Positions 40,821 to 56,937 of a stretch of 64,000 bases of DNA are shown one piece after another (positions within the stretch are counted from its first letter, which is position 1; the number at the start of each line of letters is the position of its first letter). The DNA is taken from assembly GCF_027460265.1 (NCBI RefSeq), contig NZ_JAPZBC010000001.1, positions 2,755,501 to 2,819,500 of the forward strand. Reading direction: 5' to 3'. Made by a program: the position numbers and the translations under genes. The notes under the pieces were generated by a model. The model did not search any database, was not told the origin of the DNA, and saw only the letters and a list, made by a program, of their open reading frames with translations. Source of the stretch: Streptomyces sp. WMMC940 (lineage in GTDB: Bacteria; Actinomycetota; Actinomycetes; Streptomycetales; Streptomycetaceae).

Positions 40821-40832
40821 CTACGCGCGTAG
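40821..40832. promoter_or_regulatory. Palindrome CTACGCGCGTAG upstream of PNP (candidate operator)
   Basis: This 12-bp perfect palindrome is followed after 12 nt by TAGGCT (40845-40850), then 6 nt and the GTG start. It therefore covers the -35 region. Identical copies occur at 45658 and 56926 in front of deoC and add. Confidence 0.7.
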
Positions 40833-40856
40833 GGTTTCTCAGGCTAGGCTTTTCTC

Positions 40857-41666
40857 GTGAACGTTTCCCTTACCCCGGACCCCCACGCCGCCGCCGACGC
40901 CGCGGCCGCGCGCCTGCGAGAGCTGACCGGCGCCGAGACCCACGACGTCGCCCTGGTGATGGGCTCGGGCTGGGCGCCCGCAGTCGACGCCCTCGGTGCC
41001 CCCGACGCCGAGTTCCCGGTCACCGAGCTGCCCGGCTTCCCGCCCCCGGCGGTCGAGGGCCACGGCGGCAAGATCCGCTCGTACCGGATCGGTGAGAAGC
41101 GCGCGCTCGTCTTCCTCGGCCGTACGCACTACTACGAGGGCCGCGGCGTCGCCGCCGTGGCGCACGGTGTGCGCACCGCGGTCGCCTCCGGCTGCAAGAC
41201 CGTCGTCCTGACCAACGGCTGCGGCGGTCTGCGCGAGGGCATGCGGCCCGGCCAGCCGGTCCTCATCAGCGACCACATCAACCTCACCGCGGCCTCGCCG
41301 ATCGTCGGCGCCAACTTCGTGGACCTGACCGATCTGTACTCGCCGCGGCTGCGGGCGCTGTGCAAGGAGGTGGACCCGACGCTGGAGGAGGGCGTCTACG
41401 TCCAGTTCCCCGGCCCGCACTACGAGACCCCGGCCGAGATCAACATGGTCCGCGTCATGGGCGGCGACCTGGTCGGCATGTCCACGGTGCTCGAGGCCAT
41501 CGCGGCCCGCGAGGCCGGCGCCGAGGTGCTCGGCATCTCCCTCGTCACCAACCTCGCGGCGGGGCTGTCGGGCGAGCCGCTGAACCACGAAGAGGTCCTG
41601 CAGGCGGGCCGCGACTCCGCGGCGCGGATGGGCGAGCTGCTGACCCGGGTGCTGGCCCGGATCTGA
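40857..41666 (+). CDS. Purine-nucleoside phosphorylase (PNP family 2)
   Basis: The enzyme splits (deoxy)inosine and (deoxy)guanosine into base plus (deoxy)ribose-1-phosphate. The 269-residue product starts at GTG 40857 without a ribosome-binding site; TAGGCT sits 6 nt upstream, so the mRNA is probably leaderless. Family motifs are MGSGWAPA near 35 (phosphate), [12 protein letters not shown] near 85, LTNGCGGL near 118 and [14 protein letters not shown] around 185-200, ending with [20 protein letters not shown]. This is the trimeric PNP type. Confidence 0.93.
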
Positions 41667-41845
41667 CGGGTCTCGCCGCCCCGGCGCCGGCCCGGCTCCG
41701 GGCCACGGCCCCGCCTGCCGGGCACACCGCCCGGAGCGCAGCGGGACGACACGCCGCCCGGAACGGGCAGGCGCAGGCGTCGGCGCTGCCGGGCACACAG
41801 CCGGCGGCGCTCACGCTCACGACGACACCAGAGAGGCACATCACC

Positions 41846-43507
41846 GTGGCGCAGGACCTGATCGCGCAGGCCCGGGCTTGGCTGGCCGAGGACCCCGACG
41901 CGGAGACCCGCGACGAACTGGGCCGGCTCATCGAGGCCGGGGACACGGCGGAGTTGGGCGCCCGGTTCGCCGGGACCCTGCAGTTCGGCACCGCCGGTCT
42001 GCGCGGGGAGCTCGGGGCCGGGCCGATGCGGATGAACCGCGTCGTCGTCATCCGCGCCGCGGCCGGGCTGGCCGCGTACCTCAAGGCGCAGGGTCACACC
42101 GGCGGCCTGGTCGTGATCGGCTACGACGCCCGCCACAAGTCCGCGGACTTCGCCCGCGACACCGCCGCCGTCATGGCCGGCGCCGGACTGCGGGCCGCGC
42201 TGCTGCCGCGCCCGCTGCCCACACCCGTGCTCGCCTTCGCGATCCGGCACCTGGGGGCCGTCGCCGGCGTCGAGGTCACCGCCAGCCACAACCCGCCGCG
42301 CGACAACGGCTACAAGGTCTACCTCGGGGACGGCGCCCAGATCGTGCCCCCGGCCGACGCCGGGATCGCCGCGGCGATCGAGGCGGTCGGCAGCATCCAC
42401 GACCTGCCGCTCCCCGAGAGCGGCTGGGAGACGCTCGGGGACGAGGTCCTGGATGCGTATCTGGAGCGCACCGACGCGGTCCTGAGCCCGCGCTCGCCGC
42501 GTACGGCCCGTGTGGTCCACACGGCCCTCCACGGCGTCGGCGGCGACGTGGTTCTGGCGGCCTGGGAGCGGGCCGGCTTCCCCACCCCCGTGCTCGTCGG
42601 CGAGCAGGCCGAGCCGGACCCCGACTTCCCCACGGTCGCCTTCCCCAACCCGGAGGAACCGGGCGCGATGGACCTCGCGTTCGCGAAGGCGCGCGAGGTC
42701 GGGCCGGACCTCGTCATCGCCAACGACCCCGACGCCGACCGCTGCGCCGTGGCGGTCCCCGACGGCAGCGCGGACGGCGGCTGGCGCATGCTCCACGGCG
42801 ACGAGGTCGGCGCGCTGCTCGGCGCCCATCTCGTCCGCAAGGGCGTGTCGGCGAAGGACGCGAGCAGCACCTTCGCCACGTCGATCGTGTCGTCGTCGCT
42901 GCTCGGCCGGATCGCCGCCGCGGCCGGGCTCGGCTACGAGGAGACCCTGACCGGCTTCAAGTGGATCTCCCGGGCGGAGGGCCTGCGGTACGGCTACGAG
43001 GAGGCGCTCGGCTACTGCGTCGACCCGGACGGCGTGCGCGACAAGGACGGCATCACCGCCGCGCTGCTGGTCGCCGAACTGGCCTCGGAGCTGAAGGCCG
43101 AGGGCCGTACGCTCACGGACCTGCTGGACGACCTCGCCGTCGCCCACGGTCTGCACGCGACCGACCAGCTGTCGGTGCGCGTGGAGGACCTGGACGTCAT
43201 CGCGGAGGCCATGCGCAGGCTGCGCGGGAAGCCTCCCGTGGCGCTGGCCGGACTGCGGGTGGTGTCGGCGGAGGACCTGTCGAAGGGCACCGAGGCGCTG
43301 CCGCCCACGGACGGTCTGCGGTACTACCTGGAGGGCGAGTACGCCGCCCGCGTCATCGTCCGCCCGAGCGGCACCGAGCCCAAGCTCAAGTGCTACCTGG
43401 AGGTCGTGGTCCCGGTCGGTCCGGGCGAGCCGGCCTCCGCGCGGGCCCGTGCCTCCGAGGTCCTCTCGGCCGTCAAGCGGGACCTGGCCGAGGCCGCCGG
43501 GATCTGA
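41846..43507 (+). CDS. Phosphohexomutase/phosphopentomutase-family enzyme
   Basis: The 553-residue product starts at GTG 41846 (VAQDLIAQARAWLAED), with AGAGG about 9 nt upstream. It belongs to the alpha-D-phosphohexomutase superfamily: FGTAGLRGELGAGPMRMN near 50, phosphoserine loop VTASHNPPRDNGYKVYL near 145, metal loop ANDPDADRCAV near 292, sugar loop and phosphate-binding RPSGTEPKLKCYLEV near the end. The N-terminus is of the PGM2/phosphopentomutase-like subgroup. Being next to PNP and near deoC, it may interconvert (deoxy)ribose-1- and -5-phosphate. It would also be called phosphomannomutase from sequence alone. Confidence 0.85.
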   Translation: MAQDLIAQARAWLAEDPDAETRDELGRLIEAGDTAELGARFAGTLQFGTAGLRGELGAGPMRMNRVVVIRAAAGLAAYLKAQGHTGGLVVIGYDARHKSADFARDTAAVMAGAGLRAALLPRPLPTPVLAFAIRHLGAVAGVEVTASHNPPRDNGYKVYLGDGAQIVPPADAGIAAAIEAVGSIHDLPLPESGWETLGDEVLDAYLERTDAVLSPRSPRTARVVHTALHGVGGDVVLAAWERAGFPTPVLVGEQAEPDPDFPTVAFPNPEEPGAMDLAFAKAREVGPDLVIANDPDADRCAVAVPDGSADGGWRMLHGDEVGALLGAHLVRKGVSAKDASSTFATSIVSSSLLGRIAAAAGLGYEETLTGFKWISRAEGLRYGYEEALGYCVDPDGVRDKDGITAALLVAELASELKAEGRTLTDLLDDLAVAHGLHATDQLSVRVEDLDVIAEAMRRLRGKPPVALAGLRVVSAEDLSKGTEALPPTDGLRYYLEGEYAARVIVRPSGTEPKLKCYLEVVVPVGPGEPASARARASEVLSAVKRDLAEAAGI

Positions 43508-43675
43508 CGGCCCGCCGGGCCGGAGCTCCCCGCCCGCGCCCGGCCAAGGCCGGGCGCGGGCGCCGTCTTCTTGCGGGTGATTTCCGTACGGCAACCGACC
43601 TACCTGCCCGTGCCCCTGGCGTGCCCCGCGGGCGAGGGTGGCCCCGGTAGCGCCCGCCGAATCACCGGAGCACCC

Positions 43676-44872
43676 GTGCCCCCGACCGCAACCCCCCACG
43701 CCACCGTCCCCGCCTCCCGCCGGGCACCCGGCTCGGGAGGCGGCGCCGTACCCGGCGGGGAGAGCCGGCTGCTCCACGCACTGAACCGGGCCGCCCCGGC
43801 GCTGCTCGGCTATCTGGCCGTACGGCTGACGGGGCTCCTGGTGCTCGCGCGGTGGGCCCACCTCAAGGGCGAGAGCCTCTGGCCGACGCTGGCCGCCTCC
43901 TGGGACTCCCACTGGTACCTGGGGATCGCCGACCACGGTTACCACCGCGAGCTCGGACCCGCCCCGAACACCAACAACCTGGCGTTCTTCCCGCTCTACC
44001 CGGTGCTGGTGAAAGCCGTCGCGGCGGTGGCCCCGGGCAGCCGCGCCTCGGTGGCCCTGGCCATCGCGGTGGTGGCGTCCGTCGCCGCGGCGTGGGGCGT
44101 CTTCGCGGTCGGCGAGCGGCTGCACGGCCGGCGTACCGGGACCGTGCTGGCGGTGCTCTGGGGCGCCATGCCCGTCGCGGTCGTCCAGTGGATGGGCTAC
44201 ACCGAATCGCTGTTCACGGCGCTCGTGGCCTGGTCGCTGTACGCGGCGCTCACCGGCCGCTGGCTGTGGGCCGGATGGCTGGCGGCCCTGGCCGGGCTCA
44301 CCCGGCCGACGGGCGTCGCTATCGCCACGGCGGTGACGGTGGCCGGGCTGGCGGCGTTCGTCCGCGGCCGCGGCCGGCGCGCCCTCGTGGGAGCGTTGCT
44401 CGCCCCGCTGGGATGGTGCGGCTACGTGGCCTGGGTGGCGCTCCGCCTCGGGCGCTGGGACGGCTACTTCGCCGTGCAGCGGCACTGGGCCAATGTGTGG
44501 GACGGCGGGAAGGTGACGCTGGAGGAGCTCACGCAGCAACTCGCGTACGACGCGGACCCGCAGTTGCTGATGCTGCTCGTCTCCGTCGTCCTGGTGCTGG
44601 CCACCGGGCTGTTCCTGCTCTGTCTCGCCGACCGGCAACCGCTGGTGCTGGTGGTGTTCACGGGTGTGCTGCTGCTCATCGTCCTCGGCAGCGGCGGCGT
44701 CTACTTCCCGCGCGCCCGGTTCCTGCTGCCCGCGTTCCCGCTGCTGCTGCCCGTCGCGGTGGCGGTGGCGCGGGCGCGGAGGGCGGCGGCGCTGCTCGTC
44801 CTGGGCGGTGCGGTGCTCTCCTCGGCCTGGCTGGGCGGGCATCTGCTGCTGGTGTGGCAGGGCCCGCCGTGA
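43676..44872 (+). CDS. Polytopic membrane glycosyltransferase-like protein (PIG-V type)
   Basis: The 398-residue product starts at GTG 43676 with GGAG 6 nt upstream. About 8-10 membrane helices follow a disordered N-terminus. The loop WDSHWYLGIADHGY near residue 75 and FFPLYPVLVKAV near 100 resemble the conserved W-D-x-x-W-Y and FPLYP motifs of PIG-V/GT-C mannosyltransferases, which use polyprenyl-phosphate sugars. YTESLF and GLTRPTG motifs support this. The acceptor is unknown. Confidence 0.82.
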   Translation: MPPTATPHATVPASRRAPGSGGGAVPGGESRLLHALNRAAPALLGYLAVRLTGLLVLARWAHLKGESLWPTLAASWDSHWYLGIADHGYHRELGPAPNTNNLAFFPLYPVLVKAVAAVAPGSRASVALAIAVVASVAAAWGVFAVGERLHGRRTGTVLAVLWGAMPVAVVQWMGYTESLFTALVAWSLYAALTGRWLWAGWLAALAGLTRPTGVAIATAVTVAGLAAFVRGRGRRALVGALLAPLGWCGYVAWVALRLGRWDGYFAVQRHWANVWDGGKVTLEELTQQLAYDADPQLLMLLVSVVLVLATGLFLLCLADRQPLVLVVFTGVLLLIVLGSGGVYFPRARFLLPAFPLLLPVAVAVARARRAAALLVLGGAVLSSAWLGGHLLLVWQGPP

Positions 44873-44946
44873 CGGGCACGCGGCCGGCTCCGTGCCGGGC
44901 CGTGGTGCGCGCACGCGCGCACCGGGCCGGGGAGGCGTGCGCCGGC

Positions 44947-45594
44947 TCAGCCGACCGCGAGCAGGACGAGCAGGGCGACCGCTCCCACGACGACCGGGCC
45001 GGCGATCTCGTACGCCCAGCGCACCTGCGGTTCTCCCGTCGCGGTCGGCCGGTGCGCGGCCCGCTCGGACAGCTCCCTCAGTTCGGCGATCGTCCGGTCG
45101 CCGGGCGCCATGTGCGACGCGCCGCCTGCGGTGGGTGCGCCGCCCGGTGCGGTGGTGCCCCCGGCATCGCCCGCGGCGGCCCTCGACCGCCTGCGGGCGG
45201 CCGTCTTGCGCTGCCGCAGCGACACCGGCACGGCCCACAGCTGGTACTTCGCGCCGTCCTCGGTGAAGACCTCGCTGGAGTACGCGGCGCGCACCTGCGC
45301 GACCGTCCGCCAGGGCAGCACGATGGTACGGAAGGGGTTCCTGATGCGGAGCCGGTCGTCATTGGCGAAGACCGCGGGCCGCAGCGTGAAGGCGACGATC
45401 AGCGGCACCAGCACCAGGAGCCCGGCGAGCGCGACCCAGGGCGTGAGCCCCTCGCCGCGGACGAGCGCGTCGCCGCCGATCCAGCCGGTGAGCGCGAGCA
45501 GCAGCACACCGGCCGCGATGCCGGAAAGCGAACGGTAGGCGCGGTCGGCGTGGACCGGCTCGGCGGTCGGCTGCTGGGGGCTCTTCATGCTCAC
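44947..45594 (-). CDS. Membrane protein with bacterial PH domain
   Basis: The 215-residue product has two helices at about 22-42 and 52-70, then a bacterial PH-like beta domain (VFANDDRLRIRNPFRTIVLPWRTVAQVRAAYSSEVFT), a low-complexity Gly/Ala linker, and a C-terminal helix (VVVGAVALLVLLAVG). It lies convergent with the PIG-V gene and divergent from deoC, sharing the intergenic region that holds CTACGCGCGTAG. Function unknown. Confidence 0.85.
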   Translation of the reverse strand: MSMKSPQQPTAEPVHADRAYRSLSGIAAGVLLLALTGWIGGDALVRGEGLTPWVALAGLLVLVPLIVAFTLRPAVFANDDRLRIRNPFRTIVLPWRTVAQVRAAYSSEVFTEDGAKYQLWAVPVSLRQRKTAARRRSRAAAGDAGGTTAPGGAPTAGGASHMAPGDRTIAELRELSERAAHRPTATGEPQVRWAYEIAGPVVVGAVALLVLLAVG

Positions 45595-45657
45595 GATTCT
45601 GCCGCATGGTCCCGTGGCGCCCGATGAACGAGTCCCCGGCGCCCCCTGTACAGGTTG

Positions 45658-45669
45658 CTACGCGCGTAG
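45658..45669. promoter_or_regulatory. Palindrome CTACGCGCGTAG upstream of deoC (candidate operator)
   Basis: The palindrome ends one nt before TATGCT (45671-45676), which is 6 nt before the GTG start of deoC. It thus occupies the spacer between the -35 and -10 regions, a repressing position. It also lies 64 bp upstream of the PH-domain gene. Confidence 0.7.
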
Positions 45670-45682
45670 ATATGCTGGTCTG

Positions 45683-46636
45683 GTGACCATGCCCACCATT
45701 GCACCTGCATTCGCTGACGTGACCTCGTCCGACAGCGCACTGCGCCGCTTCCTGCACGGGCTGCCCGGTGTCGACGCCGTCGGCCTGGAAGCGCGCGCCG
45801 CGTCTCTCGGCACCCGCTCCATCAAGACGACGGCCAAGGCGTACGCCATCGACCTGGCCATCTCGATGATCGACCTGACGACGCTGGAAGGCGCGGACAC
45901 CCCGGGCAAGGTCCGGGCGCTCGCCGCCAAGGCCGTCAACCCCGACCCGACCGACCGCTCCGCACCGAGGACCGCCGCCGTCTGCGTCTACCCCGACATG
46001 GTGGCCACCGCCAAGGCCGCCCTGGGCGGTGCGGACGTGAAGGTCGCCTCCGTCGCCACCGCCTTCCCCGCCGGCCGCGCCGCCCTGGACGTCAAGCTCG
46101 CGGACACCCGCGACGCCGTCGAGGCCGGGGCCGACGAGATCGACATGGTGATCGACCGCGGCGCCTTCCTCGCGGGCGACTACCTGAAGGTCTTCGAGGA
46201 GATCCGCGCCGTGAAGGAGGCCTCCGGCCCCGCCCGACTGAAGGTCATCTTCGAGACCGGCGAGCTCTCCACCTACGACAACATCCGTCGCGCCTCCTGG
46301 CTCGGCATGCTGGCCGGAGCCGACTTCATCAAGACGTCGACCGGGAAGGTCGCCGTCAACGCGACCCCGGCCAACACCCTGCTCATGCTGGAAGCCGTCC
46401 GCGACTTCCGCGCGCAGACCGGCGTACAGGTCGGCGTGAAGCCCGCCGGCGGCATTCGCACCAGCAAGGACGCCATCAAGTTCCTGGTGCTCGTCAACGA
46501 GACCGCGGGCGAGGACTGGCTGGACAACCACTGGTTCCGATTCGGCGCGTCCAGCCTGCTGAACGACCTGCTGATGCAGCGCCAGAAGCTGGCGACCGGC
46601 CGCTACTCCGGCCCCGACTACGTGACGGTGGACTGA
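45683..46636 (+). CDS. deoC: Deoxyribose-phosphate aldolase
   Basis: DeoC cleaves 2-deoxyribose-5-phosphate to acetaldehyde and glyceraldehyde-3-phosphate. The 317-residue product starts at GTG 45683 (VTMPTIAPAF); TATGCT 6 nt upstream and no ribosome-binding site argue for a leaderless mRNA. An ATG two codons later is the alternative. The Schiff-base lysine lies in ADFIKTSTGKVAVNATP, and the proton-relay lysine in GVKPAGGIRTSKDA. It is followed 6 bp later by an aldehyde dehydrogenase gene, in one operon. Confidence 0.95.
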   Translation: MTMPTIAPAFADVTSSDSALRRFLHGLPGVDAVGLEARAASLGTRSIKTTAKAYAIDLAISMIDLTTLEGADTPGKVRALAAKAVNPDPTDRSAPRTAAVCVYPDMVATAKAALGGADVKVASVATAFPAGRAALDVKLADTRDAVEAGADEIDMVIDRGAFLAGDYLKVFEEIRAVKEASGPARLKVIFETGELSTYDNIRRASWLGMLAGADFIKTSTGKVAVNATPANTLLMLEAVRDFRAQTGVQVGVKPAGGIRTSKDAIKFLVLVNETAGEDWLDNHWFRFGASSLLNDLLMQRQKLATGRYSGPDYVTVD

Positions 46637-46642
46637 GACCCC

Positions 46643-48091
46643 ATGACCATGGACAAGCATTCTGTCTTCGAGTACGCGCCCGCACCCGAGTCGCGGTCGG
46701 TCGTCGACATCGCCCCGTCGTACGGCCTCTTCATCGACGGCGAGTTCACCGACGCCGCCGACGGCAAGGTCTTCAAGACCGTCTCCCCCTCCACCGAGGA
46801 GGTCCTGTCCGAGGTCGCCCGGGCGGGCTCCGAGGACATCGACCGTGCGGTGAGGGCCGCGCGCAAGGCGTTCGAGAAGTGGTCCGCGCTGCCGGGCTCC
46901 GAGCGCGCCAAGTACCTCTTCCGCATCGCCCGGATCATTCAGGAGCGCTCGCGCGAGCTCGCCGTCCTGGAGACCCTGGACAACGGAAAGCCGATCAAGG
47001 AGACCCGCGACTCCGACCTCCCGCTGGTCGCGGCGCACTTCTTCTACTACGCGGGCTGGGCCGACAAGCTCGGCCACGCGGGGTACGGACCCGACCCGCG
47101 GCCCCTCGGCGTCGCCGGCCAGGTCATCCCCTGGAACTTCCCGCTGCTGATGCTGGCGTGGAAGATCGCCCCGGCGCTCGCCACCGGCAACACCGTGGTG
47201 CTGAAGCCCGCGGAGACCACCCCGCTGTCCGCGCTGTTCTTCGCCGACATCTGCCGCCAGGCCGGGCTGCCCAGGGGCGTCGTCAACATCGTCCCCGGCT
47301 ACGGCGACGCGGGCGCCGCGCTCGTGGCCCACCCGGACGTGAACAAGGTGGCCTTCACCGGTTCGACCGCGGTCGGCAAGGCCATCGCCCGCGAGGTCGC
47401 GGGCACCGACAAGAAGCTCACGCTGGAGCTGGGCGGCAAGGGCGCCAACATCGTCTTCGACGACGCCCCGATCGACCAGGCCGTCGAGGGCATCGTCGGC
47501 GGCATCTTCTTCAACCAGGGCCAGGTCTGCTGCGCGGGCTCCCGGCTCCTCGTCCAGGAGTCGATCCAGGACGAGCTGCTCGACTCCCTCAAGCGGCGGC
47601 TGTCGACGCTGCGCCTCGGCGACCCGCTGGACAAGAACACCGACATCGGCGCCATCAACTCGGCCGAACAGCTGGCCCGGATCACGGCCCTCGCCGAGAC
47701 CGGCGAGGCCGAGGGCGCCGAGCGCTGGACGGCACCGTGCGAACTGCCTTCGTCCGGCTACTGGTTCGCCCCGACGCTGTTCACCAACGTCACCCAGGCC
47801 CACACCGTCGCCCGTGACGAGATCTTCGGCCCGGTGCTGTCGGTGCTGACGTTCCGCACCCCGGACGAGGCCGTGGCCAAGGCCAACAACAGCCAGTACG
47901 GCCTGTCGGCGGGCATCTGGACGGAGAAGGGCTCCCGCATCCTCGCGGTGGCGAACAAGCTCCGCGCGGGTGTGGTGTGGGCGAACACCTTCAACAAGTT
48001 CGACCCGACCTCGCCCTTCGGCGGATACAAGGAGTCGGGCTTCGGCCGCGAGGGCGGCCGCCACGGTCTGGAGGCCTACCTCGATGTCTGA
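46643..48091 (+). CDS. Aldehyde dehydrogenase, catalytic partner
   Basis: The 482-residue product is a complete ALDH with NAD fold: catalytic N165 in VIPWNFP, general base E262 in LTLELGGKG, and nucleophile C296 in NQGQVCCAG. FTGSTAVGK near 238 and the C-terminal EIFGPVLSVL are present. It is placed 6 bp after deoC, so acetaldehyde from deoxyribose breakdown is the likely substrate. Its stop overlaps the next gene by 8 bp. The pair matches the two-part ALDH16 type (see findings). Confidence 0.93.
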   Translation: MTMDKHSVFEYAPAPESRSVVDIAPSYGLFIDGEFTDAADGKVFKTVSPSTEEVLSEVARAGSEDIDRAVRAARKAFEKWSALPGSERAKYLFRIARIIQERSRELAVLETLDNGKPIKETRDSDLPLVAAHFFYYAGWADKLGHAGYGPDPRPLGVAGQVIPWNFPLLMLAWKIAPALATGNTVVLKPAETTPLSALFFADICRQAGLPRGVVNIVPGYGDAGAALVAHPDVNKVAFTGSTAVGKAIAREVAGTDKKLTLELGGKGANIVFDDAPIDQAVEGIVGGIFFNQGQVCCAGSRLLVQESIQDELLDSLKRRLSTLRLGDPLDKNTDIGAINSAEQLARITALAETGEAEGAERWTAPCELPSSGYWFAPTLFTNVTQAHTVARDEIFGPVLSVLTFRTPDEAVAKANNSQYGLSAGIWTEKGSRILAVANKLRAGVVWANTFNKFDPTSPFGGYKESGFGREGGRHGLEAYLDV

Positions 48092-48998
48092 GTCGACGCG
48101 TCTGTCCGTCTTCAAGACCTACAAGCTGTACGTCGGGGGCAAGTTCCCCCGCAGCGAGAGCGGCCGGGTGTACGAGGTGACCACAGCGACATCAGCCGGC
48201 GGCGCGGCGGGCAAAGGCAGGTGGCTCGCCAACGCGCCGCTGTCCTCACGCAAGGACGCCCGTGACGCGGTCGTCGCCGCACGCAAGGCGTTCGGCGGCT
48301 GGTCGGGCGCCACGGCCTACAACCGCGGCCAGATCCTCTACCGCGTCGCCGAGATGCTGGAGGGCCGCAGGGAGCAGTTCGTCCGCGAGGTGGCCGACGC
48401 CGAGGGCCTGTCGAAGTCCAAGGCGGGCGCGGTCGTGGACGCCGCGATCGACCGCTGGGTGTGGTATGCGGGCTGGACGGACAAGATCGGCCAGGTCGTC
48501 GGCGGGGCGAACCCGGTCGCGGGCCCGTTCTTCAACCTGTCGACGCCCGAGCCGACGGGTGTCGTCACCGTCCTGGCCCCGCAGGAGTCGTCCTTCCTCG
48601 GGCTGGTCTCGGTGATCGCCCCCGCGATCGCGACGGGCAACACGGTCGTGGTCGTCGCCTCGGAGCGGGCCCCGCTGCCGGCGCTCTCGCTCGGCGAGGT
48701 GCTGGCCACGTCCGATCTCCCCGGCGGCGTGGTCAACGTCCTCTCCGGCCGCACGGCCGAGATCGCCGCCCCGCTGGCCGCGCACCAGGACGTCAACGCG
48801 ATCGACCTCACCGGGGCCGAGGCGCAGCTCGCCAAGGAGCTGGAGGTGGCCGCCGCGGACAACCTGAAGCGGGTGCTGCGGCCCCGCGCGGAGGACTGGA
48901 CGGCCGACCCCGGTACGGACCGGATGACGGCCTTCCTGGAGACCAAGACGGTCTGGCACCCCACGGGTTCGCTGGGGGCCTCCGGCTCGGCGTACTGA
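48084..48998 (+). CDS. Aldehyde dehydrogenase-like protein without catalytic residues
   Basis: The 304-residue product starts at ATG 48084 inside the upstream gene (MSESTRLSVFKTYKLYVGGKF). It aligns with the N-terminal NAD-binding part of ALDHs (YKLYVGGKFPRSESGRVYE... GWSGATAYNRGQILYRVAEML). At the catalytic Asn motif it has VLAPQESSFLGL instead of PWNFP, and the segment with the base and the nucleophilic Cys is missing. ALDHs normally have about 480 residues. A non-catalytic C-terminal half is known from ALDH16 proteins, so this may be a structural partner of the preceding enzyme. Confidence 0.88.
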   Translation: MSESTRLSVFKTYKLYVGGKFPRSESGRVYEVTTATSAGGAAGKGRWLANAPLSSRKDARDAVVAARKAFGGWSGATAYNRGQILYRVAEMLEGRREQFVREVADAEGLSKSKAGAVVDAAIDRWVWYAGWTDKIGQVVGGANPVAGPFFNLSTPEPTGVVTVLAPQESSFLGLVSVIAPAIATGNTVVVVASERAPLPALSLGEVLATSDLPGGVVNVLSGRTAEIAAPLAAHQDVNAIDLTGAEAQLAKELEVAAADNLKRVLRPRAEDWTADPGTDRMTAFLETKTVWHPTGSLGASGSAY

Positions 48999-49025: not shown

Positions 49026-49077
49026 GCACGCTCGGCGGGCCCGCGGGGAGCGATCCCCGCGGGCCCGCCGAGCGTGC
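49026..49077. terminator. Bidirectional terminator after the deoC operon
   Basis: A 24-bp perfect stem with a GCGA loop lies between the ALDH-like gene and the convergent secreted-protein gene. Confidence 0.9.
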
Positions 49078-49086
49078 ACCCTCCGG

Positions 49087-49428: not shown

Positions 49429-49547
49429 GGAATCCTGCCTCCAGAAGTAACCGGTCGACGACGCAGCGTAGTTGTGATGTGACGCTCGATACCAACCGGA
49501 CCTCCGGGGGATCCCACGCACGGGTCAATGCCTCACACTGGTGTCCC

Positions 49548-50186
49548 GTGAGTTCCCAACCCCCGCCGACGCGCGTCGTCCTGCTGTCCGGGCCCTCGGG
49601 TTCCGGAAAATCGTCCCTCGCCGCCCGCTCCGGCCTCCCGGTGCTGCGCCTCGACGACTTCTACAAGGAGGGGGACGACCCCAGCCTTCCGCTGATGGCG
49701 GGCACCACGGCCGTCGACTGGGACTCCCCCGCCTCCTGGGACGCCGACGCCGCGGTCCTCGCGGTCGCGGAACTGTGCCGTACGGGACGGACGACGGTCC
49801 CCGTGTACGACATCGCCACCAGTTCCAGGACCGGCGCCGAGTCCGTCGACATCTCCCGTACGCCGCTCTTCGTCGCGGAGGGCGTCTTCGCCGCGGACCT
49901 CGTGGACCGTTGCCGGGATCTCGGCATCCTCGCGGACGCCCTGTGCCTGCGCGGACGGCCCTCGACGACCTTCCGCCGCCGACTCCTGCGGGATCTGCGC
50001 GAAGGCCGCAAGTCGGTGCCCTTCCTGCTCCGGCGCGGCTGGCGGCTGATGCGCGCCGAACGCGGCATCGTCGCCCGCCAGACGGCGCTGGGCGCCCACC
50101 CCTGCGGCGCGGACGAGGCGCTGGGCCGTCTCGCCACGGCCGCCGCGAGCCACTGCCGCCGCGCGCCGGCGAAGGAAGCGGTGTAG
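49548..50186 (+). CDS. Uridine kinase-like P-loop kinase
   Basis: The 212-residue product starts at GTG 49548 (VSSQPPPTRVVLLSGPSGSGKSSLA); the frame is open further upstream. Walker A is GPSGSGKSS near residue 14, and LRLDDFYKEGDDP near 32 is the substrate lid typical of uridine kinases. VAEGVFAADLV near 113 is the usual Walker B-like EG-V/I-F segment. The C-terminus is basic. Expected reaction: uridine or cytidine to UMP or CMP. It fits the surrounding nucleoside genes. Confidence 0.85.
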   Translation: MSSQPPPTRVVLLSGPSGSGKSSLAARSGLPVLRLDDFYKEGDDPSLPLMAGTTAVDWDSPASWDADAAVLAVAELCRTGRTTVPVYDIATSSRTGAESVDISRTPLFVAEGVFAADLVDRCRDLGILADALCLRGRPSTTFRRRLLRDLREGRKSVPFLLRRGWRLMRAERGIVARQTALGAHPCGADEALGRLATAAASHCRRAPAKEAV

Positions 50187-50268
50187 GGAGCCCCCGCCCC
50201 CGGGGAGCCGTCCGCCGACGTGGCGGCGCGCGGGCGACGCCCGCTGCTCGGGCCCCGCCGCGGACGCG

Positions 50269-50315
50269 CGAAGCGGGGTCGTACAGAACCCCCGGTTCTG
50301 TACGACCCCGCTTCG
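50269..50315. terminator. Bidirectional terminator between the uridine kinase gene and sigQ
   Basis: A 22-bp perfect stem (CGAAGCGGGGTCGTACAGAA... and its complement) closes on a CCC loop and is followed by TTCCC. Confidence 0.92.
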
Positions 50316-50352
50316 TTCCCCCGTGGATCCCCCGTGATCCCCCGTTCCGCCT

Positions 50353-51132
50353 TCAGGCCACCAGCTCGCCGAAGGACTCTTCCTCGTCACGACCGAAGCT
50401 GAGGGCGTCGTCCTCGCGCATCCGGCGCAGGGAGCGCCAGATGCTCGACTTCACCGTGCCGACACTGATGTCGAGGATCTCCGCGATCTCCGGGTCCGTG
50501 CGTCCCTCGTAGTAGCGCAGCACCAGCATCGTGCGCTGCAGCTCGGGGAGCCGGGCCAGGGCCTGCCACAGGACCGCGCGCAGCTCCGTGCCGCGCATCG
50601 CGTCCGTGTCGCCCGCCGTCTCGGGAAGCTCCTCGGTCGGGTACTCGTCGATCTTGCGCCGGCGCCAGGCGCTGATGTGCAGGTTCGTCATCGTCCGGCG
50701 CAGGTATCCGCCGACCGCCGCCTTGTCGCTGATCCGGTCCCACGCCCGGTAGGTGGAGAACAGCGCGCTCTGCAGCAGGTCCTCCGCCTCGTAGCGGTCA
50801 CCGGTCAGGTGGTAGGCGGTCGCGTACAGGGAGGCGCGGCGCTCCCGGACGTAGGCGGTGAACGCCGCTTCGGCGTCCGCCCGCTCCCCGGGAACGCTCC
50901 GCTCCCCCGCTGCCTCCCCGTACGCGCTTCCCCCGTGGCCCCCCTCGGCCCTGGCGTCGACGACCGTCATGCAGGACGTGCGTCCCTGCTCGGCGGTCGA
51001 CGGCCGGTACTGGCGCCCGGCGCCGCGAACGCACCCCCGCCCGTTCACGGCGCCGGACTTCTCGGTGTTCCGCACGACGTCGTGGAGACGTGTGACAACC
51101 GCGCTCGAAGACGTGCTGTGCAGTGCGTTCAT
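50353..51132 (-). CDS. sigQ: SigE-family RNA polymerase sigma factor SigQ
   Basis: The 259-residue product has an N-terminal disordered extension (1-90), then region 2 (ASLYATAYHLTGDRYEAEDLLQSALFSTYRAWDRI) and region 4 (LPELQRTMLVLRYYEGRTDPEIAEILDISVGTVKSSIWRSLRRM). Its divergence from afsQ1-afsQ2 identifies it as sigQ, a target of AfsQ1 that affects antibiotic production and development. A later start at the internal ATG (MTVVDAR, residue 55) is possible. Confidence 0.92.
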   Translation of the reverse strand: MNALHSTSSSAVVTRLHDVVRNTEKSGAVNGRGCVRGAGRQYRPSTAEQGRTSCMTVVDARAEGGHGGSAYGEAAGERSVPGERADAEAAFTAYVRERRASLYATAYHLTGDRYEAEDLLQSALFSTYRAWDRISDKAAVGGYLRRTMTNLHISAWRRRKIDEYPTEELPETAGDTDAMRGTELRAVLWQALARLPELQRTMLVLRYYEGRTDPEIAEILDISVGTVKSSIWRSLRRMREDDALSFGRDEEESFGELVA

Positions 51133-51216
51133 CCCGCGCCCCCCGTCGGTAGGAGTCCGTTCGTGCCTTGTGGAGAAGACTCTGCCCGGGGGACTTCACA
51201 CCGCTGTCCGCCGACT

Positions 51217-51232
51217 GTCACAGGCCTGTCAC
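51217..51232. promoter_or_regulatory. Candidate AfsQ1 site GTCAC-N6-GTCAC
   Basis: Direct repeats GTCAC (51217) and GTCAC (51228), separated by AGGCCT, match the GTnAC-N6-GTnAC consensus reported for AfsQ1. They lie 85 bp from the sigQ start and 82 bp from afsQ1, so both genes may respond. Confidence 0.75.
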
Positions 51233-51313
51233 AGGGCCCCGTGTCCCTGGCGGGACGGGCCGGAGCGGTCCGGCGGTCGAACTGTCGGGGCCGCATGGGC
51301 CAGAATGACCTCC

Positions 51314-51991
51314 GTGCCATTCCTGTTGCTGATCGAGGACGACGACGCCATCCGCACGGCCCTCGAACTCTCCCTGTCACGCCAGGGCCACCGTGTGGCC
51401 ACCGCGGCGACGGGCGAGGACGGCCTGAAACTGCTGCGCGAGCAGCGGCCGGATCTGATCGTGCTGGACGTGATGCTGCCAGGCATCGACGGTTTCGAGG
51501 TGTGCCGGCGGATCAGGCGCACGGACCAGTTGCCGATCATCCTGCTGACCGCGCGGAGCGACGACATCGACGTCGTCGTCGGGCTGGAGTCGGGCGCCGA
51601 CGACTACGTGGTCAAACCGGTGCAGGGGCGGGTGCTCGACGCCCGGATCCGCGCCGTGCTGCGGCGGGGTGAGCGCGAGTCGACGGACTCGGCGACCTTC
51701 GGCTCGCTGGTCATCGACCGCTCCGCGATGACGGTCACCAAGAACGGCGAGGACCTGCAGCTCACGCCGACCGAGCTGCGCCTCCTGCTGGAGCTGAGCC
51801 GCCGGCCCGGTCAGGCCCTGTCCCGCCAGCAGCTGCTGCGCCTCGTGTGGGAGCACGACTACCTGGGCGACTCCCGGCTGGTGGACGCCTGCGTCCAGCG
51901 GCTGCGGGCGAAGGTGGAGGACGTGCCGTCCTCGCCGACGCTGATCCGCACGGTCAGAGGTGTGGGCTACCGGCTGGACACGCCTCAGTGA
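51314..51991 (+). CDS. afsQ1: Response regulator AfsQ1
   Basis: The 225-residue OmpR-type regulator starts at GTG 51314 (VPFLLLIEDDDAIRTALEL); CAGAAT ends 7 nt before it and there is no Shine-Dalgarno, suggesting a leaderless mRNA. An in-frame ATG three codons earlier exists. Receiver: acidic residues at 9-11 and phosphoacceptor D52 in IVLDVMLPG. The winged helix begins near 130 (FGSLVIDRSAMTV) and ends with VRGVGYRLDTPQ. AfsQ1 controls antibiotic clusters and sigQ, especially with glutamate as nitrogen source. Confidence 0.95.
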   Translation: MPFLLLIEDDDAIRTALELSLSRQGHRVATAATGEDGLKLLREQRPDLIVLDVMLPGIDGFEVCRRIRRTDQLPIILLTARSDDIDVVVGLESGADDYVVKPVQGRVLDARIRAVLRRGERESTDSATFGSLVIDRSAMTVTKNGEDLQLTPTELRLLLELSRRPGQALSRQQLLRLVWEHDYLGDSRLVDACVQRLRAKVEDVPSSPTLIRTVRGVGYRLDTPQ

Positions 51992-53514
51992 GCGGTGCCG
52001 CAAAGAGGGCCATACTCGCGGGACTTGGCTGGACCAGTCTCAGACTGCGCCTCGTCGTCGTGTTCGGCATGGTCGCGCTGACCGCCGCCGTGTCCGCGTC
52101 CGGGATCGCGTACTGGCTGAACCGGGAGGCCGTGCTGACCCGTACGCAGGACGCGGCGCTGGGCGACTTCCGGCAGCAGATGCAGAACCGTGCCGCCTCG
52201 CTGCCCGCCCGCCCCACGGAGAGCGAACTGCAGACGACGGCGGAGCAGATGGCGGGCGGCACCGCCGGCTACAGCGTGCTGCTGCTCGGGGAGCGGGCCG
52301 CCGGCAAACCGATCGTCGGCGCCTCCGACCCCGACGTCTTCACCCTCGACGACGTGCCCGCGGAGCTGCGGAAGGCGGTGAACGACCAGCCGCATCTGTT
52401 CTGGGTGCGCACCCAGCGCGGCAACACGCCCTATCTGGTGGCCGGCACGCGCGTCGTCGGCGGCGGGCCCACGGGCTATCTGTTCAAGTCCCTCGACCAG
52501 GAGCGCCAGGACCTGAACTCGCTGGCCTGGTCGCTGGGCATCGCCACGGCCCTGGCCCTGGCCGGCTCGGCGCTGCTGGCCCAGGCCGCCGCGACCACCG
52601 TCCTCAAGCCGGTCCAGCGGCTCGGGCAGGCGGCCCGTCAGCTCGGCGAGGGCAAGCTGGACACCCGGCTGCAGGTGTCCGGCACGGACGAACTGGCCGA
52701 GCTGTCCCGGACCTTCAACAAGGCGGCGGAGTCGCTGGAGAAGAAGATGGCGGACATGAGCGCGCGGGAGGAGTCCAGCCGCCGCTTCGTCGCCGACATG
52801 TCGCACGAGCTGCGTACGCCGCTGACCGCGCTGACCGCCGTGACGGAGATCCTGGAGGGCGAACAGGACGCCCTCGACCCGATGATCGCCCCGGCCGTGG
52901 AACTGGTGGTGAGTGAGACGCGGCGGCTGAACGACCTGGTGGAGAATCTGATGGAGGTGACCCGCTTCGACGCGGGCACCGCGCGACTGGTCCTCGACGA
53001 CGTCGACGTCGCCGACCAGGTCACGGCCTGCATCGACGCGCGGGCCTGGCTGGACGCCGTCGAACTGGACGCGGAGCGCGGCATCATGGCCCGCCTCGAC
53101 CCCCGCCGCCTCGACGTCATACTCGCCAATCTGATCGGCAACGCGCTGAAGCACGGCGGTTCGCCGGTGCGGGTGGCGGTGCGTACGGAGGGCGAGGAAC
53201 TGCTCATCGAGGTACGGGACCACGGTCCGGGCATTCCGGAGGAGGTCCTGCCGCACGTCTTCGACCGGTTCTACAAGGCGAGCGCCTCGCGTCCGCGGTC
53301 CGAGGGCAGCGGACTGGGGCTGTCCATCGCGATGGAGAACGCCCTGATCCACGGGGGCGGCATCACCGCGGCCAACTGCACGGACGGCGACGGCGGTGCG
53401 GTGTTCGTGCTGCGGCTGCCCCGTGACGCCTCCGACATCACCCCGGAGGGCCACGGGCGGGCGGCGTCCCGGGAGCGCGAGGGCGAGCAGGAAGAGGAGG
53501 GCGGCGCACGGTGA
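51988..53514 (+). CDS. afsQ2: Sensor histidine kinase AfsQ2
   Basis: The 508-residue product starts at GTG 51988, overlapping the afsQ1 stop (GTGA). It has one helix at about 18-45, an outer sensor domain of about 120 residues, a second helix at about 178-200, a HAMP domain (VLKPVQRLGQAARQLGEGKLDTRL), the phosphoacceptor H273 in ADMSHELRTPLTAL, and ATP boxes NLIGNALKHGG, DHGPGIPEE and GSGLGLSI. The tail after the ATPase is acidic. It is the AfsQ1 partner. Confidence 0.95.
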   Translation: MSGAAKRAILAGLGWTSLRLRLVVVFGMVALTAAVSASGIAYWLNREAVLTRTQDAALGDFRQQMQNRAASLPARPTESELQTTAEQMAGGTAGYSVLLLGERAAGKPIVGASDPDVFTLDDVPAELRKAVNDQPHLFWVRTQRGNTPYLVAGTRVVGGGPTGYLFKSLDQERQDLNSLAWSLGIATALALAGSALLAQAAATTVLKPVQRLGQAARQLGEGKLDTRLQVSGTDELAELSRTFNKAAESLEKKMADMSAREESSRRFVADMSHELRTPLTALTAVTEILEGEQDALDPMIAPAVELVVSETRRLNDLVENLMEVTRFDAGTARLVLDDVDVADQVTACIDARAWLDAVELDAERGIMARLDPRRLDVILANLIGNALKHGGSPVRVAVRTEGEELLIEVRDHGPGIPEEVLPHVFDRFYKASASRPRSEGSGLGLSIAMENALIHGGGITAANCTDGDGGAVFVLRLPRDASDITPEGHGRAASREREGEQEEEGGAR

Positions 53515-54221
53515 GCCGAGTACATGGGTCACGCAGGGTCCCCGCGCCGGAAGCGGCGGCCGGCACCGCGGACGCGACCGGGCCGGGCCGGAGCCCCGCA
53601 CGGCCCGCGCTGCGCCGGACCGCGGTGGCCGTGGCCGGTGCCGTCGCCCTCGCTGTCGCCGTGGGCGGCTGCGGGATCAGGACCACCACGGTCCCGGTCG
53701 AAGCCGGCGCGGCGCCCTCCCGGGTGCCGTGCACCCTCTCCGGCAAGGAGACCGCCACCGGGACCCAGCCGCAGATGCCGGTACGGGTGTACCTGGTGTG
53801 CGCGTCGGCGCTGGAGGCGGTGGACCGTACCGTCCCGATCGCCGAGGGACGGACCGGCGACCGGGTGCGGATCGCCCAGGCACTCCTCCAGGAGCTGCGG
53901 GAGGACCCGTCGGAGACCGAGCGGGAGGCCGGGTTCGCGAGCCTCGTACGGGGGCCGCTGACGGTCTCCCCGCCGCGTGACGGCGATCCTGCGGGCACGC
54001 TGCGGCTGAGCCGGCAGCCCGAGGACCTGCCGCCGGCGGCGCTGGCGCAGCTCGTGTGCACGCTGGCGGAGAGCGAGGCGGCGAGCGCGGGCGGCACGGT
54101 GGTGCTCGCGGGACCGGGCGAGTACGTGCCGCGCGGCTACCGCTGCACGGACTCGGTGAAGCAGCGTCCCGACACGGCCCTGCCGACCGCGGGCCCGTTG
54201 CCGTCGCCGGCCGCCTCCTGA
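53511..54221 (+). CDS. Lipoprotein linked to AfsQ1-AfsQ2
   Basis: The 236-residue product starts at GTG 53511, overlapping the afsQ2 stop by 4 bp. The Arg-rich n-region is long; the hydrophobic core ends in a lipobox VGGC (cysteine about residue 54), so the mature protein is anchored outside the membrane. The mature part has a GerMN-like fold (LVCASALEAVDRTVPI... AQALLQELREDPSETEREAGF). Co-translation with afsQ2 suggests it modulates sensing or responds to the same stress. Confidence 0.88.
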   Translation: MSRVHGSRRVPAPEAAAGTADATGPGRSPARPALRRTAVAVAGAVALAVAVGGCGIRTTTVPVEAGAAPSRVPCTLSGKETATGTQPQMPVRVYLVCASALEAVDRTVPIAEGRTGDRVRIAQALLQELREDPSETEREAGFASLVRGPLTVSPPRDGDPAGTLRLSRQPEDLPPAALAQLVCTLAESEAASAGGTVVLAGPGEYVPRGYRCTDSVKQRPDTALPTAGPLPSPAAS

Positions 54222-54297
54222 CGAGGACCCCGGCGGGCGATGACTCCGGCGCGACCGGCACGGAACCGATCCCGCCGGTCGCCGCGTCTTGGGGGGC

Positions 54298-54867
54298 GTG
54301 CAGCGTCAAGGTTCGGGCGGCAGTGCCGCCATCCGCTTCCGCGTGGCAGGAGGCGTCCTCCTGCTCGCACATCTCGCTCTCGTGGCGTGGCTGACGCTCC
54401 GCCCGCTGGATGTGCCGTGGGTGACGGCGGCGAACCTGGAACCGCTGGCGGGCATCAAGGCCGACCTCGCGGCGGGCCCCCTCCACGCGCTCCGTCGGAT
54501 CGGCGAGGGACTGCTGCTCCTGGCGCCCCTCGGGATACTGCTCCCGATGGCGGGCGGCAGGCTCGCCGTCTCCCCCTGGGCCTCACTGGCGCGCACGGTC
54601 GCGGCGGGGGCGCTGCTGTCCCTGGGCATCGAACTGCTCCAGACCGCGGTGCCGGGCAGGGTCGTCGACGTGGACTCGCTGCTGCTCAACACCGCCGGGG
54701 TGGCGCTGGCCCATCTCCTCGTCGTTCCCGCCGGTCGGGCCCGGCTGCGGCGCGGGGGCTCGGGACGGCGGCCGGCGGGCCGTGGGAAGGACCGGGGACC
54801 CCTGCTCCGGGAGGACGCTCCTCAGGGGCCCACCCCGACGATTCCCAGGGTCGGGATCGCCCCCTAG
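54298..54867 (+). CDS. VanZ-family membrane protein
   Basis: The 189-residue product starts at GTG 54298 with GGGGGG upstream; TTG 54289 is an alternative. Helices at about 15-32, 70-90, 100-120 and 128-145 and the motif ELLQTAVPGRVVDVDSLLLNTAG belong to VanZ proteins, with the conserved R-x-x-D-x-x-D-x-x-x-N pattern. VanZ is linked to teicoplanin resistance in enterococci, but most actinobacterial members have no known function. The charged tail is disordered. Confidence 0.85.
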   Translation: MQRQGSGGSAAIRFRVAGGVLLLAHLALVAWLTLRPLDVPWVTAANLEPLAGIKADLAAGPLHALRRIGEGLLLLAPLGILLPMAGGRLAVSPWASLARTVAAGALLSLGIELLQTAVPGRVVDVDSLLLNTAGVALAHLLVVPAGRARLRRGGSGRRPAGRGKDRGPLLREDAPQGPTPTIPRVGIAP

Positions 54868-54959
54868 AGCGACGCTTGTTCCGATCGTTCCGGGTGAACA
54901 TGGAGTCATCGGGAGCCCGACGGAGCGGCTTCCACGTAGGACTCGTGAAGGAGCACACC

Positions 54960-55160
54960 ATGGCCGCACTTGCCCGCCCCCGCGACGGACGGATGATCGG
55001 CGGAGTGTGCGCAGCGCTGGCACGGCGCTTCGGCACCTCCGCGACCACGATGCGCGTGATCTTCCTGGTGTCCTGTCTGCTGCCCGGCCCGCAGTTCCTG
55101 CTGTACCTGGCGCTGTGGCTGCTGCTGCCGACGGAGAAGAGCGCCCCCACCGCCTGGTGA
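54960..55160 (+). CDS. PspC-domain protein
   Basis: The 66-residue product starts at ATG 54960 with AAGGAG 7 nt upstream. LARPRDGRMIGGVCAALARRFG, then TMRVIFLVSCLLPGPQFLLYLALWLLLP is the PspC pattern: an amphipathic turn and one membrane helix with a break. Stand-alone PspC proteins are envelope stress modulators in other bacteria; here no other psp gene is adjacent. Confidence 0.9.
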   Translation: MAALARPRDGRMIGGVCAALARRFGTSATTMRVIFLVSCLLPGPQFLLYLALWLLLPTEKSAPTAW

Positions 55161-55182
55161 CGACCGCCGCGACCACGCGCAG

Positions 55183-55217
55183 GAGGCGCGCACCCGGGCG
55201 TCCCGGGTGCGCGCCTC
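55183..55217. terminator. Terminator after the PspC gene
   Basis: A 16-bp perfect stem (GAGGCGCGCACCCGGG and complement) has a CGT loop, followed by TCGTC. Confidence 0.85.
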
Positions 55218-55278
55218 TCGTCGTCGGCGGTCGCGCCGTGGGGCGCCCTCGCCGGTGACCGGACGCCGCGCGCGCCGG

Positions 55279-55587
55279 TCACACGGGCAGCGGAAGACCG
55301 TTCAGCGGGAGGCCGTTCAGCGGCAGACCGCTTGCCGGCAGGCCGCTGACCGGCAGACCGCCCAGGAGGCCGCCGGCCGGGGCGGGCGTGGGCAGGATCC
55401 TGGGGCCGGACTGCTGGGCCAGCTCCTCGACGGCGGGCAGCGCGGTCGGCTGGACGGCGGAGAGGGCGTCCACGGGCGTACCGACGTCGGGGAGGGACGT
55501 CGTGGCCGACGCGGAACCGGCGGCGGCAGCGGCGAAGGCGGCGCCGAGAGCGGCGACACCGAGGGTCTTGGCAGCAGCTTGCTTCAT
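55279..55587 (-). CDS. Secreted protein with C-terminal GLP repeats
   Basis: The 102-residue product starts at ATG 55587 (MKQAAAKTLGVAALGAAFAAA), with GGAAACACACCTG upstream. Signal peptide cleavage is near SASA-TTS (about 28). The C-terminus is a repeat: GLLGGLPVSGLPASGLPLNG, then GLPLNGLPLPV, encoded by 15-bp DNA repeats at 55279-55365. The mature protein is small and hydrophobic. It is not a chaplin or rodlin by sequence. Function unknown. Confidence 0.78.
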   Translation of the reverse strand: MKQAAAKTLGVAALGAAFAAAAAGSASATTSLPDVGTPVDALSAVQPTALPAVEELAQQSGPRILPTPAPAGGLLGGLPVSGLPASGLPLNGLPLNGLPLPV

Positions 55588-55721
55588 CAGGTGTGTTTCC
55601 TTGGGGAGGGGAATTGCACGGCTTTGCAAGCTAGCCAGCGCCGCCACGGCCCCGCAAACACCCGGGGAAAGGAAAAACGACCGGGGGTTGACACTCCCGG
55701 CCGTTTCCACATCACTTCGGT

Positions 55722-56909
55722 TCAGCCCTTTTTCGCGGCGGAACCGCTGGTCGTGGCGGTCTGTTGGAAAAGCCACTCCGACCTGAGCTCGGCGTATCCC
55801 GGCTTGATGACATCATTGATCATCGCGAGCCGCTCATCAAAAGGAATGAACGCCGACTTCATCGCATTGACCGTGAACCACTGCATGTCGTCGAGCGTGT
55901 AGCCGAACGTCTCGGTCAGCAGCTCGAATTCGCGGCTCATACTCGTGTTGCTCATCAGCCGGTTGTCCGTGTTCACGGTGGCCCGGAAGTGCAGCCGTCG
56001 CAGCATCCCGATGGGGTGCTCCTCGTACGAGGACGCGGCGCCCGTCTGCAGATTGGACGTCGGGCACAGTTCGAGCGGGACCCGCTTGTCCCGGACGTAC
56101 GCGGCGAGCCGCCCCAGCTTCACGCTGCCGTCGGCGGCGACCTCGATGTCGTCGATGATGCGGACGCCGTGGCCGAGACGGTCCGCGCCGCACCACTGGA
56201 GGGCCTGCCAGATGGACGGCAGCCCGAATCCCTCGCCGGCGTGGATCGTGAAGTGGTTGTTCTCGCGCTTGAGGTACTCGAACGCGTCGAGGTGGCGGGT
56301 GGGCGGGTAGCCGGCCTCGGCGCCCGCGATGTCGAAGCCGACGACACCCGCGTCGCGGTAGCGGTTGGCGAGTTCGGCGATCTCCAGGGCCCGGGCCGCG
56401 TGCCGCATCGCGGTCAGCAGGGCACCGACCCGGATGCGGTGGCCGTTGGCGCGGGCCCGGCGTTCACCCTCCCGGAAACCGTCGTTGACCGCCTCGACGA
56501 CCTCCTCGAGGGTCAGCCCCGCTTCGAGGTGCTGCTCCGGCGCGTATCGCACCTCGGCGTACACGACACCGTCCTCGGCGAGGTCCTCGGCGCACTCGAT
56601 CGCGACGCGCTTGAGGGCCTCCCGGGTCTGCATGACGGCACAGGTGTGCGCGAACGTCTCCAGGTAGCGCTCCAGCGAGCCGGAGTCGGCCGCCTCGTGG
56701 AACCAGATGCCGAGCTTGTCCGGCTCGGTCTCGGGCAGGGCGTCGTAGCCGACGGCGCGGGCGAGGTCGATGACGGTGCCGGGGCGCAGCCCGCCGTCGA
56801 GGTGGTCGTGCAGAAGAACCTTCGGGGCGCGGCGGATCTGGTCCGTGGTGGGCCCCTGGTGCCCGGGGGCGCTTCCCCGGGAGGATGCGTGGGGTGTCTG
56901 GCTCGTCAT
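55722..56909 (-). CDS. add: Adenosine deaminase
   Basis: The enzyme converts (deoxy)adenosine to (deoxy)inosine, which PNP then splits. The 395-residue product starts at ATG 56909; TAGAGT lies 6 nt upstream with no spaced ribosome-binding site, so the mRNA is probably leaderless. Zinc ligands in HDHLDGG near residue 34, catalytic HAGEGFG near 220, RLGHGVRI near 245 and CPTSN near 282, and [10 protein letters not shown] near 310 are present. The N-terminal 25 residues are low complexity. Confidence 0.95.
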
Positions 56910-56925
56910 CTCCGCACTCTAATCC

Positions 56926-56937
56926 CTACGCGCGTAG
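56926..56937. promoter_or_regulatory. Palindrome CTACGCGCGTAG upstream of add (candidate operator)
   Basis: On the minus strand the palindrome is followed by GGAT, TAGAGT, 6 nt and the ATG. It occupies the spacer 5' of the -10 hexamer. Confidence 0.7.

Follow-up and report, generated by a model that had tools for sequence, protein, structure and literature searches.

What does it mean that one perfect 12-letter palindrome stands in front of three different genes of nucleoside catabolism within 64,000 nucleotides of the genome of Streptomyces sp. WMMC940 (contig NZ_JAPZBC010000001.1, positions 2,755,501 to 2,819,500; this whole stretch is referred to here as the window)? The palindrome, CTACGCGCGTAG, was found exactly at 40821-40832, 45658-45669 and 56926-56937, upstream of the genes for purine nucleoside phosphorylase (pnp), deoxyribose-phosphate aldolase (deoC) and adenosine deaminase (add), and nowhere else in the window, as an initial annotation of this DNA had stated. 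The genomic comparisons described below strongly support the further claim of that annotation, namely that the palindrome is the operator of a nucleoside regulon, and we consider it quite likely that CTACGCGCGTAG is the operator of one repressor of nucleoside and nucleic-acid scavenging that is conserved throughout the Streptomycetaceae. The three sites, with their promoters and genes, are arranged as follows (window coordinates; in operator distances, position +1 is the start codon).

40821..40832, no strand: putative operator palindrome CTACGCGCGTAG of pnp, overlapping the -35 region, at -36..-25 from GTG 40857
40845..40850, plus strand: candidate -10 element of pnp, TAGGCT, 6 nt 5' of GTG; consensus of 78 loci GcTAc.CT
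40857..41666, plus strand: pnp, purine nucleoside phosphorylase; Pfam PF01048, NCBIfam TIGR01698 PUNP above cut-off
45658..45669, no strand: putative operator palindrome of deoC, in the -35/-10 spacer, at -25..-14 from GTG 45683
45671..45676, plus strand: candidate -10 element of deoC, TATGCT, 6 nt 5' of GTG; every base at least 95% conserved in 46 loci
45683..46636, plus strand: deoC, deoxyribose-phosphate aldolase; Pfam PF01791
56926..56937, no strand: putative operator palindrome of add (gene on the minus strand), in the -35/-10 spacer, at -28..-17 from ATG 56909
56916..56921, minus strand: candidate -10 element of add, TAGAGT, 6 nt 5' of ATG; consensus of 29 loci TAgagT
55722..56909, minus strand: add, adenosine deaminase; Pfam PF00962, NCBIfam NF006847 above cut-off

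Markov models of order 1-5 trained on the window sequence predict 0.002-0.003 occurrences of CTACGCGCGTAG per 64 kb and 0.24-0.34 per 7.665 Mb, in agreement with the earlier estimate of well under one copy per window, and among the 42 kinds of palindromic 12-mer present in the window, CTACGCGCGTAG alone reaches three copies. Within the window only the exact copies are significant, because at up to two mismatches the number of sites (6, against 4.68 expected) is that of chance; GTACGCGCGTAC at 58172, which differs from CTACGCGCGTAG at two positions, was left out of the count. The whole genome (7,665,203 bases) contains four exact copies, compared to two of the reversed sequence. The fourth copy, at the window-equivalent position 68956 (G000:C1:2824456), lies 4,956 bp beyond the window end, and all four are upstream of nucleoside genes, with no scatter of exact copies within or before unrelated genes of this genome.

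The operator-like site is real and extremely conserved. The exact palindrome was detected in all 121 sampled Streptomyces genomes, with 2-6 copies per genome, and in 100 of the 101 sampled genomes of the Streptomycetaceae, representing 16 of the 17 sampled genera of the family; the only family genome lacking it, G417, carries CTACGCGCGTTA, with two mismatches, upstream of pnp. Among Actinomycetes of other genera, 10 of 268 sampled genomes contained the exact palindrome, with 12 copies in total, and none of the nine outside copies that were compared (from 7 genomes, with G224, G274 and G354 left out) adjoins a nucleoside protein gene. In 11 genomes outside the family, the best match upstream of pnp has 3-5 mismatches.

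The association with particular genes was assessed from the gene side, by fetching loci with the protein, a procedure that avoids ascertainment by the site itself. The exact palindrome was found upstream of pnp in all 78 named loci having enough upstream DNA, upstream of deoC in all 46 named loci that reach this gene, and upstream of add in 29 of the 29 loci fetched with the Add protein, which substantiates the expected conservation in related promoters. The pnp and deoC set comprises 80 named loci fetched with the purine nucleoside phosphorylase protein (79 titled Streptomyces and one Microtetraspora glauca), which are close relatives because they are the best-scoring 80 of 573; for add, 31 genomes were searched, one without a match at the threshold, and G001 yielded only the paralogue add2, encoding a second adenosine deaminase. 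The 80 named loci (1.39 Mb) contain 127 exact copies, 126 of them before pnp or deoC, compared to 2 copies of the reversed sequence. Furthermore, the consensus of the loci shows differing flanks around 12 fixed bases. Because the flanks vary and the palindrome does not, and because the palindrome is retained in nearly all sampled genera of the family, close relatedness alone is rejected as an explanation for the core sites.

The view from the site side is similar. Among 78 same-family loci fetched by the site, one per genome, 72 have the exact palindrome beside pnp (30), a transporter ATPase gene (19), add (17), add2 (3) or deoC (3), and the remaining six correspond to a HAD hydrolase, a contig edge, a 5'-nucleotidase, purS, a coding match and an unclassified secreted protein. 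The 14 genomes with five or six exact copies contain 74 places, 32 of which were read: 15 are core sites (pnp 5, deoC 5, transporter 4, add 1), 6 belong to add2 (one assigned by eye), one each to a HAD hydrolase, purS and a 5'-nucleotidase, and the remaining 8 comprise, among others, an oligopeptide transporter, a region of a phosphate-binding protein, secreted proteins and a repeat at a chromosome end. Two unusual arrangements were observed: in G063 and G012, deoC is preceded by two exact operators at a spacing of 323 or 70 bp (L424:1213/1536; L429:1265/1335), and in the 12-Mb genome G068 the exact palindrome apparently occurs in both chromosome-end repeats (L411:1501, L427:1296), far from nucleoside genes.

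The fourth copy in WMMC940 lies between the gene for a BMP-type lipoprotein and an operon encoding an ABC ATPase, two permeases, cytidine deaminase (cdd) and thymidine phosphorylase (deoA), the last gene of which enters the window.

63104..64000, minus strand: deoA, thymidine phosphorylase, end gene of the ABC-cdd-deoA operon; runs beyond the window end

The initial annotation had proposed looking before deoA and cdd, and it is there, ahead of the whole operon, that the exact copy is found. Since a strong hairpin (seen by eye) closes the lipoprotein gene on its 3' side, the operon is probably transcribed from a separate promoter at the palindrome. The best family-model matches of the transporter are to sugar and B6 transporters, below the NCBIfam cut-off, and we label it nucleoside-type because of its linkage to cdd-deoA. 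Among the 8 genomes with three exact copies, 6 keep a site with one mismatch upstream of the transporter ATPase gene (CTACGCGTGTAG in five, CTGCGCGCGTAG in one). One putative operator precedes pnp, deoC, the deoA/cdd/uptake genes and add, the pattern of a regulon. The ATPase gene itself apparently starts at AUC (window-equivalent ~68850; L022 ~8850-8679, minus strand): of 32 family loci, 31 have an in-frame ATC within GAGTGCG(C/T)CATC, directly 3' of a GGAG-type ribosome site, and 15 of these 31 have no in-frame ATG, GTG or TTG 5' of the conserved domain; an overlapping GTG frame plus a frameshift would be the alternative.

The promoters, called from sequence and conservation rather than from mapped start sites, suggest how the palindrome could act. 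The pnp, deoC and add transcripts are probably leaderless, because a -10-like hexamer lies six nt before each start codon, and the palindrome is separated from this hexamer by 1, 4 or 12 nt. The initial annotation had called this a repressing position; the placement over the -35 region or the spacer fits, and repression at the palindrome, which we infer from it, is likely. The palindrome is thus likely the binding site of a putative control protein. Under the mechanism that we propose, a dimer would occupy the palindrome, which in mostly leaderless promoters lies between -36 and -14, and block RNA polymerase, whereas at add2 and at a secreted nuclease gene it would bind over the first codons; release might be triggered by a nucleoside-derived signal, such as deoxyribose-5-phosphate, ribose-1-phosphate or a purine compound. 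The core of the regulon would consist of pnp, deoC, add and the nucleoside-type ABC transporter-cdd-deoA operon. Weaker, imperfect sites would extend it to purSQL, to the genes for secreted nucleases and 5'-nucleotidases, to a permease of the guanine/hypoxanthine type and, in certain species, to the second add.

For these imperfect sites, the clearest case is purSQL, the sole purine-biosynthetic genes examined for the site. Tested from the gene side with PurQ, 30 of 30 loci (31 genomes searched, one without the locus) have the site, with one mismatch in 29 and two in 1, at a fixed place 14 nt 5' of a -10-like element; the reversed sequence gives 3-4 mismatches, and simple shuffles come within two mismatches in ~1.3%. 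The WMMC940 genome has 11 one-mismatch places. Seven of them coincide with or adjoin the starts of six genes whose involvement with nucleic acids is known or plausible, namely purS, a 5'-nucleotidase gene, a metallophosphoesterase gene identified by its likeness to L138 and preceded by two sites separated by 14 bp, a Xan_ur_permease-type permease gene assigned by eye from likeness to L143, and the genes for a secreted GmrSD_C-type nuclease and a carbon-nitrogen hydrolase. Of the other four, one is upstream of rpoB and three are in coding regions. Several of these places recur in G003, G007 and G009; a conserved coding stretch of dnaA with a near-site also recurs, a coding coincidence. The add2 gene of this genome has no site within one mismatch. 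The assignments of rpoB, dnaA, the POT transporter mentioned below and mshD, as well as the reading of the carbon-nitrogen hydrolase as a beta-ureidopropionase, were made by eye. Upstream of rpoB, CTACGCGCGTAC is conserved in three genomes (L007, L150, L174, near 1200-1512). Sites with a varied centre, CTACG-NN-CGTAG, precede a carbon-nitrogen hydrolase gene in three genomes (L006:1501-1512, L155, L168) and perhaps belong to a related yet different regulator.

Published data provide some indication that the core genes respond together. In an RNA-seq comparison of a Streptomyces lividans strain producing a heterologous cellulase, Table 3 reports a rise of pnp from 5 to 64, of deoC from 7 to 69 and of add from 11 to 49 transcripts per million (log2 rise 3.70, 3.24 and 2.16, respectively), along with a rise of bldKB and bldKC (PMC6302529). 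The deoC promoter (SCO4914) is enriched in the WblC chromatin immunoprecipitation-qPCR data of PMC7157823, where it is grouped with WblC-repressed promoters. Adenosine deaminase is listed among the nucleic-acid-degrading proteins whose abundance in S. coelicolor is reported to exceed that in S. lividans by up to ten-fold, and recycling of nucleic acids from dying mycelium has been suggested for S. coelicolor in the same source (PMC7244524). The literal motif CTACGCGCGTAG together with Streptomyces was not found in the open PMC papers searched, which does not prove its absence; among 94 papers with part-motifs, the 30 listed included none relevant by title, and no description of a regulator of the Streptomyces nucleoside genes was found there.

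Several observations weigh against the proposed repressor of nucleoside and nucleic-acid scavenging. Sites within one mismatch are, in total, no more numerous than those of the reversed control (15 versus 35 in this genome), and their number falls under the control in 9 of 13 genomes. Except for purS and add2, the extended targets were found through the site, so that their frequency is biased; because of this, and because the totals do not exceed the control, only recurrence and placement support the one-mismatch sites. In only 7 of 18 genomes does add2 carry, across its start or close to it, a site within one mismatch, and 2 of the 8 three-copy genomes have no near-site in the 420 bp before the transporter ATPase gene. 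Some near or exact sites precede genes that nucleosides alone would not explain, namely rpoB and the genes of oligopeptide transporters and phosphatases. Finally, the S. lividans table, restricted to genes of known function, does not include the transporter, cdd, deoA or purS, and the producer strain was also under DNA-damage and secretion stress (PMC6302529).

Which protein would read the palindrome? The initial annotation had named the DeoR-type gene as the nearest candidate and had suggested looking for the palindrome upstream of it. Regulatory genes of the window include the following.

37480..38403, minus strand: DeoR/AgaR-type regulator gene; no operator copy in its own promoter
58289-59716, minus strand: LysR gene near the palindromes
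50353-51132, minus strand: ECF sigma gene near the palindromes

We consider it unlikely that the DeoR-type protein reads the palindrome, represses the regulon and senses a pentose phosphate, as does DeoR of Escherichia coli, and the gene, whose S. coelicolor orthologue is presumably SCO4920, is a weak candidate. It has a strong match in all 101 family genomes (in two pieces in G476), lies within 20 kb of pnp in all 41 full-length named loci (median 2.4 kb), encodes 65 initial residues that are identical in the 30 best-scoring family copies (slightly different in G417) and, by Pfam, a DeoR C-terminal sensor domain. However, no exact palindrome precedes it in any of 77 named loci, the nearest approach being two mismatches in one locus, or in any of 30 family loci, where the best matches have 4-5 mismatches; autoregulation through a site in the regulator's own promoter is common, not obligatory. 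Moreover, the gene and the palindrome occur together within the family but not outside it: 22 of 23 sampled outside genomes with a 54-71% identical relative lack the exact palindrome (the exception, G224, has a single copy), although the recognition helix is nearly unchanged in the six outside relatives that were read. The protein scores below cut-off with the NCBIfam models for DeoR (74.7 versus 244) and, with a better fit, AgaR (187.1 versus 260), and DeoR-family operators usually have another form. The suggested link between this gene and the palindrome is not supported. The promoter of the DeoR-type gene (38404-38490) is itself highly conserved, with TTACTGTCAGTTTCGTGTTCGC, and looks leaderless. 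The TetR-type gene at 36464 is a poor candidate because it is not regularly conserved, being present in just 21 of the 41 full-length named loci. The form of the palindrome presumably suits a LacI-type protein: like operators of that family, CTACGCGCGTAG is an even palindrome with a central CpG.

The nature of the control could also differ from the one we propose. A wider nutrient regulator, acting on peptides, phosphate esters and purines, with the nucleoside genes as just its strongest targets, would account for near or exact copies beside oligopeptide-type ABC genes in several genomes (L420, L345, L172, L153, L171), a POT-like peptide transporter (L142), PhoX and phytase-like proteins (L170, L410) and rpoB, as well as for the increase of bldKB/bldKC alongside pnp, deoC and add in the S. 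lividans table; yet the great majority of exact copies adjoin nucleoside genes (72 of the 78 site-fetched loci), the peptide and phosphatase sites occur in few genomes and mostly with one mismatch, and coincidences of the dnaA kind recur too, which makes such a regulator rather improbable. A role as an activator site, or as a special promoter element, is very unlikely: the palindrome is always near a promoter, and activators can occupy positions near -35, but its distance to the -10 element varies, and its location over the first codons of add2 and the secreted nuclease gene is unlike a sigma element and unusual for an activator. A sigma-factor element in particular is disfavored by the variable spacing. 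As for chance repetition of a GC-rich 12-mer, the two-mismatch count in the window is that of chance and the one-mismatch totals over 13 genomes are, overall, no higher than the control, but the exact copies exceed the genomic expectation more than 10-fold and are kept in place in all gene-side tests, so that this explanation is rejected for them and is vanishingly improbable.

An operator of a nucleoside-scavenging repressor hence remains the reading we prefer. Whether a single Streptomycetaceae-specific regulator runs the whole scavenging chain, from secreted nucleases and 5'-nucleotidases through the uptake of purines and nucleosides, deaminases and phosphorylases to DeoC, and tunes de novo purine synthesis at purSQL through graded imperfect sites, and in this way couples nucleotide supply to the recycling of DNA from dying mycelium, appears to us evenly balanced. 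In practical terms, the near-invariant operator is a ready bait for its regulator, comes with a defined target list and offers a route to strains with altered nucleoside metabolism.

Compared with known systems, the arrangement resembles the DeoR and CytR regulons of E. coli, in which one operator family serves deoxyribose aldolase, nucleoside phosphorylases, deaminases and nucleoside uptake, but the palindrome is not known to resemble the DeoR and CytR operators in sequence, its sites are on short, apparently leaderless promoters, and purSQL and secreted nucleases and nucleotidases are seemingly included. In form, an even-length perfect palindrome with a central CpG and a GCGC core over promoters, it resembles LacI-family operators such as that of Streptomyces CebR (TGGGAGCGCTCCCA), from which it differs in its half-site, CTACGC, and in that no LacI gene is linked here. 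Bacterial PurR regulons would include purSQL and purine transport, whereas here catabolic and uptake genes have the strongest sites and the purSQL site has 1-2 mismatches. Finally, as in the DasR/GlcNAc scavenging regulon of Streptomyces, a widespread operator would join extracellular polymer digestion, uptake and catabolism, albeit with a different operator and for a different nutrient.

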